Part shown: positions 7,610 through 22,398 of the stretch, in pieces | Layout: the number at the start of each line of letters is the position of its first letter | Numbering within the stretch: position 1 is the first letter of the stretch | Virus record (IMG/VR): IMGVR_UViG_3300017788_000196 | Span: 1 to 22,398 of that record | DNA length: 22,398 nt | Strand: one strand, 5' to 3' | Origin: a virus | The notes under the pieces: generated by a model | Databases searched by the model: none | Told to the model about the DNA's origin: nothing | The model's input: only the letters and a program-made list of their open reading frames with translations | Made by a program: the position numbers and the translations under genes

Positions 7610-9781
7610 TTATCTGTTTTTAGCAATTTTAGGTAGCTTTAATACCGGTTTAGCATTATCTATAATAACTGCTAACTGAGAATCTCCGACAACATTCTGA
7701 TTTAAGATTGCAGATTGTTTTTCTTTTTCAATCATGTTTTGGAAAATCCTCAAATTGGTTAATAAAAGCGGACTCCCTAATACTTTGTATGCATTATTAT
7801 CAGTTTTCCAAGTTTCTTTCTGGTTATCTAATTCAATATTTGAAGGTATATTATAAGTGTATTTTTCAGTGATTACACCCTCTTTATTATGAATCAATCC
7901 AAGATCAGAAGTTTGAGCCTCTGGATTTTCTGGGTCATAAAGCATTTTCCAAACGTTTATGGAGTATTGTTTAAATATATTTGAAAAGTTAAATACAAAC
8001 CCATACCAATCGTCTAATAAAGGTATGAACTGTCCTAATGACGCGGTTGTTCCTGCACCAAAAGGTGAGAGTATTTCTAAACCGTTTATTAAGATTCTAA
8101 AAGATCCCGTTTGTATGTAACTAGTTCCTGTTTCGGTTTCATTCGATCCTGACCATATCATCTGTATCCAAATTCCCTGACTATCCTTTCTTCCATAAAG
8201 TAATGTTCTAGATTGTGCTTTCTGCATTTTCCAGGTCGAGATAGATGATGTGATAGGAACACCTAAATCTTTTACTGTGAAGTTGTAAGCATCTGGAATA
8301 CCTACTATTTTAAATCCACCACTTCTTGGCCCGTCAGCTAAAACAGAAACATATCCTTCCGGATTTGTTCCCATACTTAATTTGTGAGCTATTGGATAGG
8401 TTGAATATGTTATCAATCCATCTGCTTGTGTATATGATGTTATTGATATTTTAGAAGCAGGCTTATTGACTAATTTTGTTTTATCTATATAATTCTTAAC
8501 CTTAAACCAGCATGTAAAAGATATCTCTTCGCCGTCACCTAGTACAGGTAAAGATTTATATCTAACTGCTTGTCTTTGCTCATCAGTTTTAGAAGTAGAT
8601 TTTGGATCCTCATACAAGAATCTTTCTAGATCATAATAGCTATTAAAGACTATTGTCCAGTTATTATTTAAATCATATTCTATGATAGGAAGGTAATAAT
8701 CTATATAAGCTCTAGTTGGATCCTCATTTCTTCTTTGAGAAGAAACAAAATATTGTTGGGGTTTAACTATTTTTTCTACTTCTTCCTGGGTATCTTCTCC
8801 AAAAAGATCTTGGGTGTTTACTGTGTAATCTAGCAATTCCTTTTCATCTTCTTTGTTTATGAATTGGGTGTTTTTCTTTACCTCGTATTTCATCAATTGA
8901 CACTTAAAGAAAACTGGATATAAATTAAAATCTCTATGTAAATATGTTGATTCTATCTGGTAGATTCTGTTTGTTAATGGAAAAAATATAATATCCCTTT
9001 TCCTCGGTTGCGCACCCTTTCCGAAAATACTTTCAAAGTATTTTCTGTCTATATGAATTTCTAAAGGCTGCTCAAACTGAATTCCGAACGTGTCATAAAT
9101 TGGTTTATTGTCTGGAAAATTGTTACCAGGAACCATTACCTTAACACATTTTTCAGCAACAACATCGAAGAGACTATATTCTCTGAGAACCACATCTTTA
9201 CCTCTTCCGTTTGGCTGTACTGAATAGTAATTAACTTCGTGCCCAAATAAGGTGTTTACTGTCTTACTTAGATCTTGATAAACGTTTATTCCCCTATTTA
9301 CATCATAAGGTTTAAATACTTTGTCCGGATCGCAATTATCGTTGAAGATAATAGATCTGGTGTACATTTCTCTGGAGCAAAGAACAGCAGGTTTAGTTAT
9401 CAGATCTCTATAATCAGGTACAAAGTATTCAAGATCTAAATCAAAATTTTCAATCTCAATTACAGGATCCAATTGGGATCCCTCAGAAAAGTGCGGACTA
9501 GCGTCCTCGTCAGAAAATGCAGTAAACTTGAATTCTAAATACAGCTTATTGCCCGGATTTAAATCTAAAGCATTAGTGTTTTCCTCTGTTAATTCTATCC
9601 ACAGAGACCAATTGCTATTGTTTAAACTCCATCTAAATTCCTTTTTAAGGTATCTAGAAACCCCCGATTCACCGGTGGCCTCTATAATCCATCCCTTAAA
9701 CTTTTTAACGTCGCTAAAAGCCTCGCTATAGTTAATAATTCTGTAATTTCCAATGCTGGAAAAAATAATTGGATTTGCCAT
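7610..9781 (-). CDS. Large multidomain virion protein, neck (gp14-like) candidate with a LamG-like region
   Basis: A 723-residue protein in the position where T4 neck/tail-connector genes lie, just upstream of gp16. Residues about 180-305 (FGHEVNYY, EPLEIHIDRKYFESIFG-like segment, RKRDIIFFPLTNRIYQIES, FFKCQLMKYEV) recall T4-type gp14 neck proteins in order and spacing; this is a resemblance from memory, not an alignment. A linker (310-350) leads to a beta-rich region: EISFTCWFKVKN (419-430), a small inserted domain (about 445-510), SFRILINGLEI (560-570) and DDWYGFVFNFSN (590-601), which resembles a concanavalin/LamG jelly roll with its recurring Trp and Asn strands. If right, a neck protein carries a displayed carbohydrate-binding domain. 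The start is ATG directly after GATATATATGAGAA. Confidence 0.5.
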   Translation of the reverse strand: MANPIIFSSIGNYRIINYSEAFSDVKKFKGWIIEATGESGVSRYLKKEFRWSLNNSNWSLWIELTEENTNALDLNPGNKLYLEFKFTAFSDEDASPHFSEGSQLDPVIEIENFDLDLEYFVPDYRDLITKPAVLCSREMYTRSIIFNDNCDPDKVFKPYDVNRGINVYQDLSKTVNTLFGHEVNYYSVQPNGRGKDVVLREYSLFDVVAEKCVKVMVPGNNFPDNKPIYDTFGIQFEQPLEIHIDRKYFESIFGKGAQPRKRDIIFFPLTNRIYQIESTYLHRDFNLYPVFFKCQLMKYEVKKNTQFINKEDEKELLDYTVNTQDLFGEDTQEEVEKIVKPQQYFVSSQRRNEDPTRAYIDYYLPIIEYDLNNNWTIVFNSYYDLERFLYEDPKSTSKTDEQRQAVRYKSLPVLGDGEEISFTCWFKVKNYIDKTKLVNKPASKISITSYTQADGLITYSTYPIAHKLSMGTNPEGYVSVLADGPRSGGFKIVGIPDAYNFTVKDLGVPITSSISTWKMQKAQSRTLLYGRKDSQGIWIQMIWSGSNETETGTSYIQTGSFRILINGLEILSPFGAGTTASLGQFIPLLDDWYGFVFNFSNIFKQYSINVWKMLYDPENPEAQTSDLGLIHNKEGVITEKYTYNIPSNIELDNQKETWKTDNNAYKVLGSPLLLTNLRIFQNMIEKEKQSAILNQNVVGDSQLAVIIDNAKPVLKLPKIAKNR

Positions 9782-9785
9782 TTCT

Positions 9786-9795
9786 CATATATATC
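9786..9795. promoter_or_regulatory. Divergent GATATATATG/CATATATATC promoter-like element
   Basis: This near-palindromic ATATATAT lies in the 32-base gap between two divergent genes. On the minus strand TATATA ends six bases before ATG 9781; on the plus strand it lies about 19 bases before ATG 9814. One element may serve both directions. The minus-strand transcript would begin at or next to its start codon. Confidence 0.4.
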
Positions 9796-9813
9796 GGTGA
9801 ATAAAATCTAGGT

Positions 9814-10101
9814 ATGGGATTAAAAGATCTTAAAGAAATGATTAATAGATTCAGTTTTGCTCAAATGACCTCTAATTCAAATGGAAAAACATCTGCCAGC
9901 GGAACAATGGGAGTACTTATATGTACAATTGGTAGCATTTCCTTTCTCTACGGATCTCTAATTAGAGACAATGAGATTCTATTACAAACTGTTGTTTTTA
10001 CCGGAATTGGTGCTGGTCTTCTAGGATACAGAAAATCTCAAGATCCAGCTAAAAAGATCGAAAATGGCGAAGCAGTAGAGGATCAGCCTTTAAATTCTTA
10101 A
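9814..10101 (+). CDS. Two-helix membrane protein, possible holin or inner-membrane protein
   Basis: A 95-residue protein with two hydrophobic segments: about 31-50 (TMGVLICTIGSISFLYGSLI) and 55-71 (ILLQTVVFTGIGAGLLG), separated by a short charged turn (RDNE). The N-terminus is amphipathic and the C-terminus charged. The hairpin topology and size fit a class II-like holin or small phage inner-membrane protein, but no lysozyme or other lysis gene is adjacent. It is one of only two plus-strand genes here and is inserted inside the morphogenesis block. It converges on the gp15-like gene with no space: its stop codon abuts that gene's stop codon. Function is inferred from topology only. Confidence 0.7.
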   Translation: MGLKDLKEMINRFSFAQMTSNSNGKTSASGTMGVLICTIGSISFLYGSLIRDNEILLQTVVFTGIGAGLLGYRKSQDPAKKIENGEAVEDQPLNS

Positions 10102-10899
10102 TTATTTAATCGTGTTTTGTGAAAGGATAGTTATGCCTTTTAAAATAGCTGAATTGTCTGGGGGAACTACTCCTAATTCGGTCTTCAATTTGATCCCTCC
10201 TTGCATTAAATTTCCTCTAAATCTTTCAGTTGTAAGATCTAACTGTGGAAGATATGTCTCTGCATTCACATTGATAGAAAGTGTAATTCCCTCGCCCCTA
10301 GTGCTTCCATAACTAAAATTAAACGTGTTCGGAGCTTTATCAGGTAATTGATCAGCTAAAGATGCTTGAACCGGGACTCTAAATCCATTGTATTCAAAAT
10401 AGTAAACAAAATTCTTAAAAAGAACCTCGATAGTTCTAGCTTGAATTTTTAAAGCATCAGTTGTGGTATCCACCTTAATTTTCAAAGAGAATGTAGCATC
10501 GATTGGAATAGGGGTAAGATATGCTGAATAAGCTTTTATTTCAGATCCCCCAGATTCCTGCACAATTTCCTTCTCGTATGTTCCCCTTACATACTTATTT
10601 GTTGATGAGGATGTTGTTATCCTAGAGCTTTGATATTCTAAAATGCCTCTTGGAACAACATCATAGTTGCCCTCAGCAAAAAGAGGATTTCCGTCACAAT
10701 CCCCATAATTCAAATAAAAATCCTGTAAAAAAGATTCGTCACCAGCTAAAGAATAGAAAAAAGGAATATAAATCTCCTGTATTTTTCCACTGCTTGTTGT
10801 TTGATAGAAGGTGATCTTCTCATTCAAGGATTTTAGCATTCCAATGATTAAACCTCTGAAAAAAACATCGTCGCTGTTAAATTTATCTAAAAAATTCAT
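10102..10899 (-). CDS. gp15: Tail sheath stabiliser / tail completion protein (T4 gp15-like)
   Basis: A 265-residue protein, against 272 aa for T4 gp15, which caps the tail and joins it to the head neck. The N-terminal order matches the family: a helix (FFRGLIIGMLKSLNEKITFY), a beta hairpin ending in IYIPFFYS (43-50), a variable acidic loop, then DVVPRGILEYQSSRI (80-94), the counterpart of the ILPR-type stretch in gp15. A later P-IDATFSLKIKV strand precedes the helix IQARTIEVLFKNFVYYF. Synteny (before gp16/17/18/19) supports it. It overlaps the preceding gene by 4 bases (ATGA), indicating translational coupling. Identification rests on pattern and position, not a profile search. Confidence 0.7.
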   Translation of the reverse strand: MNFLDKFNSDDVFFRGLIIGMLKSLNEKITFYQTTSSGKIQEIYIPFFYSLAGDESFLQDFYLNYGDCDGNPLFAEGNYDVVPRGILEYQSSRITTSSSTNKYVRGTYEKEIVQESGGSEIKAYSAYLTPIPIDATFSLKIKVDTTTDALKIQARTIEVLFKNFVYYFEYNGFRVPVQASLADQLPDKAPNTFNFSYGSTRGEGITLSINVNAETYLPQLDLTTERFRGNLMQGGIKLKTELGVVPPDNSAILKGITILSQNTIK

Positions 10900-19361: not shown

Positions 19362-19418
19362 CTTTTAAATTTGTTGTAAAAATAAGAATTTTCCCGCAAA
19401 GATAAAAATGTAAATTTT

Positions 19419-19426
19419 GATATATA
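19419..19426 (+). promoter_or_regulatory. GATATATA element abutting the start of the plus-strand gene
   Basis: GATATATAAAGGTATG: TATATA ends 5 bases before the ATG at 19432, the same spacing as at 11228-11236 (5) and 9786-9795 (6). If it is the -10 element, transcription starts near the A of the ATG. It overlaps a TTG at 19417 that could otherwise be taken for the start. Confidence 0.45.
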
Positions 19427-19431
19427 AAGGT

Positions 19432-20106
19432 ATGGAATTTTTGACCAGATATAGCGATTATCGAAATTCCCTAGTAAATGAGTTTGTTTTTACTGAGGAT
19501 CAAATAACAGAAAGCCTTATTATGCTAGAATCTAGTGATGAGCTATTTGAGTATTGGTATAATACGGTATTCGATTTTGCTGCCTTGATACCCGGAATTG
19601 GATCTTTTTTTGAGGGAATAAATTTAGTATCTTATGCTAAACAGGGGGAATACCTTTTAGCAGGTCTTTGTGCCATAGGTTTAATTCCAATATTTGGGCA
19701 ATATATTGGAGCAGGAGGTTCTCTTATAGTAAAAGCTTTAAAGGGAACGGGTAAAATAGGGTCTAAAATGCTCGCTCCTGTAGCCTCTTTGGTCTCTAAA
19801 TTTTTTCCCAAAATTACCAAGTTTTTAAAAAGCGCAGAATTTACCTCAAAGTTTAAGGGAATAGGAAAATACACAGATAACATGATATTAGCTCTGAAGG
19901 ATCTTTCAGCAGGGAAAAAGGTCGGTATTATGGGGAAGGTATTTACTGCTAGAACAGAAGGAAAATCACTTACTAAATTAGGACAGTGGTTAATCCCAGG
20001 AGGTAAAGGATCTCAAGCAGTTTCTGTCACAGATCCAAGAATAGCCTCTACTGCAGAAGAAAATTGGGAGCAGTTCATAAAAGCAGTTCCCATTCAAACC
20101 ACATAA
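19432..20106 (+). CDS. Hydrophobic glycine-rich protein, pre-toxin (PT-TG)-like or membrane-active
   Basis: A 224-residue protein from ATG 19432. A helical N-terminus (1-44) precedes two hydrophobic blocks: FDFAALIPGIGSFFEGINLV (47-66) and YLLAGLCAIGLIPIFGQYIG (74-93), with GAGG just after. The repeated (I/L)IPG(I/V)G and GLIPIFG patterns resemble the pre-toxin TG domain found in polymorphic toxins and in some T4-like virion proteins. The rest (105-190) is basic and Gly/Lys-rich (ALKGTGKIGSK, LSAGKKVGIMGK). It could be a virion-carried membrane-penetration or pilot-like protein, or an early membrane-acting effector. It is an isolated plus-strand gene with its own terminator region at 20104-20127. 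The family match is inferred by eye. Confidence 0.65.
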   Translation: MEFLTRYSDYRNSLVNEFVFTEDQITESLIMLESSDELFEYWYNTVFDFAALIPGIGSFFEGINLVSYAKQGEYLLAGLCAIGLIPIFGQYIGAGGSLIVKALKGTGKIGSKMLAPVASLVSKFFPKITKFLKSAEFTSKFKGIGKYTDNMILALKDLSAGKKVGIMGKVFTARTEGKSLTKLGQWLIPGGKGSQAVSVTDPRIASTAEENWEQFIKAVPIQTT

Positions 20107-21497: not shown

Positions 21498-21995
21498 TTA
21501 TTTGGTTAGTAAGTATTGTAAAACCTCTTTCCACGTCGGGAATTTTTCCGTTCCGAAGTGAATATGCTCACCTTCGAAATCAGCAACACCATTAGCTACC
21601 CTGTCATCTATCAAATATTCCCCTCTCAATAATCCCTTATTGTGTGAAAGTATTAATTTTTTGTTGGCACTTTTTCCTAAATACTTTTGAACCCAAACCC
21701 TCTTATCTGTCCATGCTTCTACGTTTGACCACATAGCGGTTGAAAGTATGTAGGCGTCGTATTTTTCCTGTAAAGTGTGCCAGGCTTCTATTGCTCCAGG
21801 AATTGGGTCTAAATCTTTAAAAGCAAGAGTGTGATTAAAAGCCTGATACTGCTTGATGCCTCTGGCTGATAATTCTTCCTGTCTTTTATCAAAATCACAG
21901 AGAACCCCGTCCATATCAATATAAAGAACTGGCTTCTCCGTTTTTAAGGAGGCTCTTAGATAGCTGGGGATTTTTTGATTAATTTCCTCTGTCAT
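21498..21995 (-). CDS. 5'(3')-deoxyribonucleotidase, HAD superfamily (NT5C type)
   Basis: A 165-residue HAD phosphatase of the 5'-nucleotidase, deoxy (NT5C) family, which removes phosphate from (deoxy)nucleoside monophosphates. Motif I is YIDMDGVLCDFD with nucleophile D27 and acid/base D29. Motif II is ILSTA (83-87), motif III K120 in HNKGLLRG, and motif IV LIDDR (128-132) with D130 and D131. The length fits the family and the residues are intact. It is next to a thymidylate synthase/dCMP hydroxymethylase-like gene, so a role in dNMP pool control is likely. A promoter-like TAATAATTAAACAA lies about 30-45 bases upstream. Confidence 0.85.
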   Translation of the reverse strand: MTEEINQKIPSYLRASLKTEKPVLYIDMDGVLCDFDKRQEELSARGIKQYQAFNHTLAFKDLDPIPGAIEAWHTLQEKYDAYILSTAMWSNVEAWTDKRVWVQKYLGKSANKKLILSHNKGLLRGEYLIDDRVANGVADFEGEHIHFGTEKFPTWKEVLQYLLTK

Positions 21996-22080: not shown

Positions 22081-22398
22081 CTACTTAGAGAGTAGGTACT
22101 TTTCGCTTTTAAACGCATGTAATGAAGTGATATGCATAGTAAACATACCCGGTTTGACATCATTCCAAAAAGAATCTCTTTCCCTTAATCTTTCGAGAAG
22201 CCATAAAACTTTTCTACAGCAGAGATAAATGTCATCTCTAAAGTGCCTAAAGAAATCGCAGGATCTTATATAATAAACGACATGCATGTACCCGTGCCTC
22301 ATAATAAAGTGATAGCCAATAGTGCAAGGAACCCTTTCCCCGTTTGCACCTCCGGTGTCTTCTGGGAACCAAATGGGGAGAAAAGCTTGCCTGGTTGA
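22081..22398 (-). CDS. Thymidylate synthase / dCMP hydroxymethylase-family enzyme, N-terminus outside the window
   Basis: An open frame runs from the window's right edge to the TAG at 22081 (105 residues seen). The ATG at 22302 is internal: the frame continues upstream with LPIWFPEDTGGANG and then RVPCTIGYHF, the TS active-site region with the catalytic Cys in VPC. Next comes YYIRSCDFFRHFRDDIY, matching the phosphate-binding RSCD motif of TS, then MHITSLHAF, matching the SLH motif. In E. coli TS, Asn177 follows RSCD by eight residues; here that position is Asp (second D of RDDI), as in dCMP hydroxymethylases such as T4 gp42. This suggests dCMP rather than dUMP as substrate. Family call is strong, substrate is inference. 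Confidence 0.85.
   Translation of the reverse strand, partial: STRQAFLPIWFPEDTGGANGERVPCTIGYHFIMRHGYMHVVYYIRSCDFFRHFRDDIYLCCRKVLWLLERLRERDSFWNDVKPGMFTMHITSLHAFKSEKYLLSK

Follow-up and report, generated by a model that had tools for sequence, protein, structure and literature searches.

A thymidylate synthase-like phage gene at the end of a viral contig likely encodes a dCMP-specific enzyme of a distinct clade

Introduction

The described enzymes closest to the one analysed here are gp42 of phage T4, a dCMP hydroxymethylase (PDB 1b49, 1b5d and 6a9b), MilA, a CMP 5-hydroxymethylase (PDB 5jnh and 5b6d), and AfhB of phage HY126, a flavin-dependent dCMP hydroxylase (PDB 9iqu and 9iqc), which is taken together here with the Mosigvirus 5-hydroxy-dCMP (5-hodCMP) synthase, described in PMC13390438 as an enzyme of the thymidylate synthase (TS) superfamily. 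In gp42, Trp82 packs on the PABA ring of the folate and Asp171 reaches the pterin through an ordered water, according to PMC6400193. A further point of comparison is the set of TS/carbamoyltransferase cassettes found on cytosine-modified contigs by MetaGPA (433 TS sequences); in PMC8670742, positions 177 and 147 are those that best separate the TS proteins of contigs with modified cytosine from those of unmodified contigs.

The window studied here (the whole stretch of DNA that was analysed, 22,398 bases) is a complete IMG/VR record ending within a TS-like gene. A first-pass annotation had proposed that this gene might encode a dCMP hydroxymethylase like that of T4, and that the phage might make modified cytosine. 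The gene was compared with its relatives in IMG/VR and GenBank and with the enzymes above.

Results and discussion

The contig ends inside a TS-superfamily gene

The minus-strand frame at the end of the window (Table 1) is open up to the edge and encodes RVPCTIGYHF and RSCDFFRHFRDD. Since the record stops at position 22,398, the contig does not include the remainder of the gene. Four sister loci in IMG/VR (L001-L004) contain a complete TS-like gene specifying 258 amino acids (in L002 at positions 9542-10318). The segment of the window between 12091 and 22398 is colinear with L002, L003 and L004, with 87.8% nucleotide identity to each of them, and L001 matches the window in two pieces (87.6-87.9% nucleotide identity); given these values, the sister loci may be one phage. 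The fragment in the window corresponds to residues 154-258 of the sister protein, from which it departs by one residue change. At the DNA level 45 codons differ, 44 of them synonymously and one non-synonymously, and by codon position the differences number 2/0/44. This excess of synonymous changes rules out a chance open reading frame and reveals selection on the protein. Such selection also acts on the part of the frame preceding the ATG at 22302, a part that the first-pass annotation had correctly read as open and as encoding the catalytic-Cys region of a TS. Its warning that a gene called from this ATG would miss the active site was also justified, since the ATG is Met186 of the sister protein and a gene starting there loses the catalytic Cys178.

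Membership of the TS family, also claimed before, is borne out by the match of the fragment to phrog_160 'thymidylate synthase' (2.8e-18). The Pfam check suggested at the time (PF00303) gave values below the cut-off of 24.3 bits for the fragment (12.6), the full sister protein (21.4) and the L051 protein (21.6); in a genome search, the PMBT14 and Serbin relatives exceeded it. The next gene downstream is of the NT5C deoxyribonucleotidase type, a clustered homologue of which is found in 11 of the 80 loci sampled, on the same strand as the TS-like gene and 0.8-1.5 kb from its start. The adjacent deoxynucleotidase had been taken as a hint of modified cytosine; the gene is real, and as a pointer to such a modification it counts for little. 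Searches of the window with PF00303, phrog_173, phrog_139, PF16861, PF11440, PF02511 and PF00406 returned no partner beyond this nucleotidase.

Table 1. Coordinates of the features discussed in the text (window coordinates unless a locus is named)
Feature	Position	Strand	Remarks
TS-superfamily gene, 3' part (last 105 codons and stop)	22081..22398	-	153 more codons beyond the record, as judged from the sister protein
Catalytic Cys codon (ThyA Cys146; sister residue 178)	22324..22326	-	Cys in 86/86
Thr at the ThyA His147 column	22321..22323	-	Thr 78, Ser 8 of 86
Internal Met186, start-like ATG	22300..22302	-	Sister protein numbering; lies after Cys178
Asp at the ThyA Asp169 / T4 Asp171 column, pterin side	22255..22257	-	Asp in 86/86; Asn in AfhB group 5/5
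Asp at the ThyA Asn177 / T4 Asp179 column, putative cytosine specificity	22231..22233	-	Asp in 86/86; MAFFT and E-INS-i
NT5C-type deoxyribonucleotidase, next gene downstream	21498..21995	-	PF06941, 1.8e-15
Second TS-fold protein, directly upstream of the TS-like gene	L087 6700-7488, L088 6637-7446, L086 6643-7482, L159 4001-4822, others		Predicted fold

Diagnostic residues of the family

Residue roles given here without a source, such as that of the catalytic Cys, are general knowledge of TS enzymes, and columns carry E. coli ThyA numbers. Relatives were found in GenBank by tblastn and in IMG/VR by six search patterns, and 80 IMG/VR loci plus six GenBank relatives were aligned using MAFFT with E. 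coli ThyA, T4 gp42 and SPO1 gp29. The first-pass annotation had placed an Asp at the Asn177 position; this holds for the window and for all the members (86/86), a count that overstates independence since the loci, the best 80 among 174, encode 64 distinct proteins and were gathered with patterns of which one spans this Asp. The same column assignment was obtained in a second alignment, made with E-INS-i and containing 43 sequences (21 family rows, five of the gp42 group and five of the AfhB group among them). At columns 177 and 147, T4 gp42 has Asp and Thr, SPO1 gp29 has Asn and Asn, and ThyA has Asn and His. In the MAFFT alignment, Cys146, Arg126, Arg166, Asp169, His207 and Trp80 are each kept in 86/86 members, and Ser167 in 85/86; the Arg127 column is Gln in 86/86, and that of Tyr209 is Phe in 64 and Trp in 22.

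The likeness to T4 gp42 extends to the equivalents of Cys148, Thr at 147, Arg168, Asp171, Asp179, Trp82 and His216, to the TS fold, and to a C-terminus shorter than that of TS (11 residues follow His207 in the L002 protein, 30 in gp42 and 57 in ThyA). The family differs from gp42 in that Gln replaces the second Arg of the DP..RR motif, Phe or Trp replaces Tyr218, Asn or Asp occupies the Glu60 column, and an additional Trp/Pro-rich stretch, recognised by eye, precedes the DP..RR motif. MilA is the best PDB match by sequence (E 6.9e-5, profile) and shares the cytosine-type Asp. Its preference for ribose is attributed to Ala176 and Lys133 in PMC5175136; at these columns the family has Ser (85/86) and Arg (86/86), as in deoxy-specific enzymes.

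Predicted fold and phylogenetic position

The sister protein was modelled with AlphaFold from 60 aligned relatives; the model reached a mean pLDDT of 84.0 and a pTM of 0.85, and is weak at residues 81-130. Foldseek returned 396 chains at E<=0.001, and all of the 50 matches listed carry TS-superfamily titles; MilA came first, followed by AfhB, and the T4 gp42 entries occupied ranks 10, 11 and 14. In VIA-align 2, the Z values of the 50 matches listed ranged from 16.6 to 17.7, MilA being again the first (17.7; 217 aligned, 2.7 Å), with Staphylococcus aureus TS at 17.6, AfhB at 17.5 (202 aligned, 2.8 Å) and other TS near 17; T4 gp42 was absent from these 50. The sister protein is thus predicted to adopt the TS fold and, since MilA, AfhB and TS are tied in Z, the fold does not pick the chemistry.

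In a tree of 43 proteins, from which columns 147 and 177 had been removed, the 21 family rows formed one clade (100/100), separate from gp42 (five rows; 99/97), AfhB (100/99) and TS (100/99). The family sits on a long branch, and long branches leave the deeper joins of the tree unsure. This branch of enzymes is widespread, a distant cousin of that of T4 and a distinct variant; a search of the open-licence literature found no paper naming the clade in its title or abstract. As a separate observation, gene 42 of Edwardsiella phage PEi20 (L129 241-939), labelled dCMP hydroxymethylase in GenBank AP014714, matches the AfhB structure 9iqu at E 4e-133, and labels of this type likely represent a class of misannotation.

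Partner genes in the large relatives and in siphophages

Three kinds of partner gene had been suggested for inspection: dCTPase, dNMP kinase and glucosyltransferase. A gp56-type dCTPase is indeed present in the sister record G001 (219 kb; positions 217886-218356, beside a DNA polymerase B gene) and, with G001 counted, in 18 of 24 large relatives, which are not independent, as sizes and scores suggest that G017, G019, G020 and G021 are near copies. The remaining six, the close relative G002 among them, gave no dCTPase match (these records may be fragments), and none was found in the 22-kb window. Of the kinases, the T4 gp1 type matched weakly outside T4, over short stretches the size of a P-loop, and an ADK-type kinase was found in 17/24 large relatives, some 4-5 kb from the dCTPase, with none in G001. 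No T4 alpha-glucosyltransferase was found in G000-G024, the T4 control being the one match among 28 records. A carbamoyltransferase (PF16861) is present in 4/24 large relatives, ∼1.3 kb from the TS-like gene in G013 and more than 20 kb away in the other three. The order in G013 is carbamoyltransferase, two genes, TS-like gene, GT34/FkbM fusion, and a GT-like protein with no Pfam hit; that in L104 is dCTPase, NrdB, NrdA, ADK-type kinase and, one gene further on, a GT2-type protein.

Two minor observations concern these surroundings. A DNA polymerase B piece of 466-469 amino acids lies just before the dCTPase in L103 (16470-17879), L104 (4919-6325) and L106 (4750-6150); that of L103, the one scanned, comprises the exonuclease and the beginning of the polymerase domain but not the rest of it, which suggests a split polymerase gene. 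The phage record G013 also carries a glutamine-synthetase-like gene (L125 4724-5794), separated from the TS-like gene by a few genes.

Five GenBank siphophages were examined (Strzyga, PMBT14, Serbin, Margaret and NoShow). All five have the same order, namely a gene labelled as P-loop, thymidylate or polynucleotide kinase, a MazG/dUTPase-type pyrophosphatase, a hypothetical gene and the TS-like gene; in four of them an annotated deaminase follows. MW202777, annotated as 'pyrimidine hmase', has a similar cassette lacking the hypothetical gene. The likeness to the MetaGPA cassettes lies in Asp177, in the carbamoyltransferase of the four large relatives, and in PF01503 and PF00383/PF14437, which PMBT14 carries and which, in the wet-lab screen reported in PMC8670742, co-occur with TS on modified contigs. 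Considered together, Asp177, Thr or Ser at column 147, the dCTPase and the cassette genes make it likely that the protein is a TS-superfamily enzyme specific for dCMP, and likely that cytosine is modified in the phage DNA.

A folate-dependent or a flavin-dependent enzyme

The explanation we consider reasonably probable is that of a dCMP-specific TS-superfamily enzyme, most likely a folate-dependent dCMP 5-hydroxymethylase, that feeds modified cytosine into DNA. The substrate, product, pathway and partner genes that we infer for the window's own phage would be as follows. Cys178 would attack C6 of dCMP, and Asp209 (ThyA 177) would recognise and protonate the cytosine ring; C5 would then gain a one-carbon unit from methylene-THF, and water would complete the reaction to 5-hydroxymethyl-dCMP. 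A kinase, perhaps the ADK-type protein of the relatives, would lead to the triphosphate, a gp56-type dCTPase would remove dCTP, and the replicative polymerase would incorporate the modified base. In some relatives the base might be further decorated by a glycosyl- or carbamoyltransferase. The earlier claim of a preference for dCMP over dUMP is, given Asp177, probably right. That of a dCMP hydroxymethylase like gp42 fares less evenly: Asp177 speaks for it, whereas the separate clade, the Asn or Asp at the Glu58 column and the presence of Asp177 in AfhB as well tell against a simple equivalence.

Since AfhB and its relatives have Asp177 too, this residue by itself does not reveal which chemistry is used. 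An enzyme of the AfhB or 5-hodCMP synthase kind, a flavin-dependent dCMP 5-hydroxylase with FAD in place of folate and making 5-hydroxycytosine that is then glycosylated, would share with the family Asp177, Thr147, in most members Phe209, the short tail and the fold, AfhB being among the tied best fold matches. Profile comparison (hhalign) scores the gp42 set and PEi20, an AfhB relative, about equally, and in two of the 80 loci (L048 and L058) a GT34/FkbM fusion lies directly 3' of the TS-like gene. The altered Glu58 column might be added to these points; however, four of the five AfhB-group rows keep Glu58, so that the Asn of the family is no pointer to AfhB, and the family clade is separate. 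In the E-INS-i alignment, Trp80 and Asp169 are kept in 21/21 family rows, whereas the AfhB group has Ala and Asn in 5/5; the signature Asn169 plus Ala80, an unpublished definition based on the five rows seen here, is found in 0/21 family rows, and at position 173 the family has His and the AfhB group Val. The retention of Trp80 and Asp169, lost by the AfhB relatives, favours folate-dependent 5-hydroxymethylation. Trp80 is no strict mark of folate use, since it is absent from 3/3 Asn177 phage rows (SPO1, Molly_4 and LuckyBarnes) and from 2/5 of the gp42 group; Asp169 is the only one of the pair common to all non-AfhB groups. A flavin enzyme is therefore considered unlikely on balance, and 5-hydroxymethylation is the best single reading.

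The Glu58 column and a second TS-fold protein

In PMC6400193, Glu58/60 is described as conserved in all TS/dCH members. In the MAFFT alignment, the corresponding column of the family holds 84 Asn and two Asp among 86 members, an assignment made by sequence alignment rather than by residue-level structure alignment. Comparison with gp42 by hhalign pairs the same Asn with Glu60, and comparison with a mixed TS/gp42/AfhB set places Glu60 in a gap; in global mode, hhalign of the family against a canonical TS set gave no useful alignment. The conservation of Trp61, three residues past the column, makes the Asn/Asp assignment plausible. Three other acids, Glu45, Glu79 and Glu117, are invariant (86/86), and any of them could stand in for Glu58. 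As a direct partner of Glu58, Glu45 (in 'IEILN') was tried and rejected: the model places it on a strand, and hhalign pairs 'IEILN' with 'IEII' of T4.

In siphophages, the product of the hypothetical gene directly upstream of the TS-like gene is likewise predicted to adopt a TS fold, so that two such genes stand side by side. The model of this partner has a pLDDT of 85.8 and its best fold match is AfhB (Z 12.7). Cys115, Arg136 and Asp147 are invariant in 19 sequences, with a spacing like that of T4 Cys148, Arg168 and Asp179, and in 21 of 22 loci (20 contigs) the partner gene is followed closely by a TS-like gene. Comparing the sequence profiles of the partner and the family gave a negative result (probability 0.3%), PDB and Pfam searches gave no hit, and one further partner scan found nothing; the tie of the partner to TS comes from its predicted fold. 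The siphophage pair is a possible heteromeric TS-fold enzyme.

A rather speculative further reading can be put forward, in which the clade, widespread in large phages and siphophages, would represent a third type of TS-fold enzyme modifying dCMP, one that arose independently, that works without Glu58 as general acid and that, in siphophages, forms a heteromer with an unannotated TS-fold partner keeping the Cys, Arg and Asp. Another alternative, in which a different C5 chemistry is carried out on dCMP, or the TS-fold enzyme is catalytically altered or heteromeric and employs an acid other than Glu58, would accommodate the Asn/Asp column with its three invariant Glu residues, the Gln at Arg127 and the siphophage pairing. 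It seems improbable, as neither the window nor its 24 large relatives yielded such a partner and the Glu58 column itself comes from sequence alignment.

Methylation of dCMP or of dUMP

A dCMP methylase producing 5-methyl-dCMP (5mdCMP) has precedents in the XP12 enzyme, named in PMC5175136, and in TS itself, in which the Asn177Asp change yields 5mdCMP (PMC8670742). The Trp80 kept by the family would agree with this activity. Against it, the protein lacks the long C-terminal part found in TS, and MilA, AfhB and gp42 are among the best Foldseek matches, all of which renders a methylase quite improbable.

An ordinary TS acting on dUMP is what the GenBank labels imply (54 of the 60 matches listed read thymidylate synthase, out of 122 matching phage records, the weakest of which may fall outside the clade), and sister record G001 lacks a canonical ThyA or ThyX match, but the possibility is highly improbable and was set aside, since Asp177 and Thr147 of the family stand against Asn177 and His147 (with Glu58) in 13/13 canonical ThyA copies, and 19 of 24 large relatives carry a canonical ThyA as well. 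These 13 copies come from 13 of those 19 relatives, and indicate that these 13 phages keep a separate dUMP enzyme. There was no strong canonical ThyA match in G001 or G002, so this two-enzyme argument does not extend to the nearest relatives. ThyX, the FAD-type thymidylate synthase (PF02511), was found in 0/28 records; MW202777, which is outside those 28, is annotated with an FAD-type enzyme.

Wider occurrence and other features of the window

Relatives are encoded by 174 IMG/VR stretches in addition to the GenBank records. If the preferred reading, a dCMP-specific enzyme feeding modified cytosine into DNA, is true, many such 'thymidylate synthases' would be cytosine-modifying enzymes, and the DNA of these phages may be protected against restriction and Cas nucleases. 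Several of the relatives have been cultured, among them Pseudomonas phage PMBT14 and Gordonia phage Margaret. With Asn or Asp at the Glu58 column, the clade would also be well suited to testing in what way TS-fold enzymes activate their one-carbon donor.

Elsewhere in the window, a 229-amino acid ORF (19417-20106, plus strand) runs on the strand opposite to its neighbours; its cluster is found in 29/80 loci, always opposite to the TS-like gene. Two adjacent and similar ORFs on the minus strand (335-916 and 931-1503) both start with MAGLPH.TSSKAAV and adjoin a tail-sheath-like protein (PF17482, 1.3e-4, below the cut-off). The first of them had no Pfam hit; by eye, the two look like duplicated tail-tube genes.
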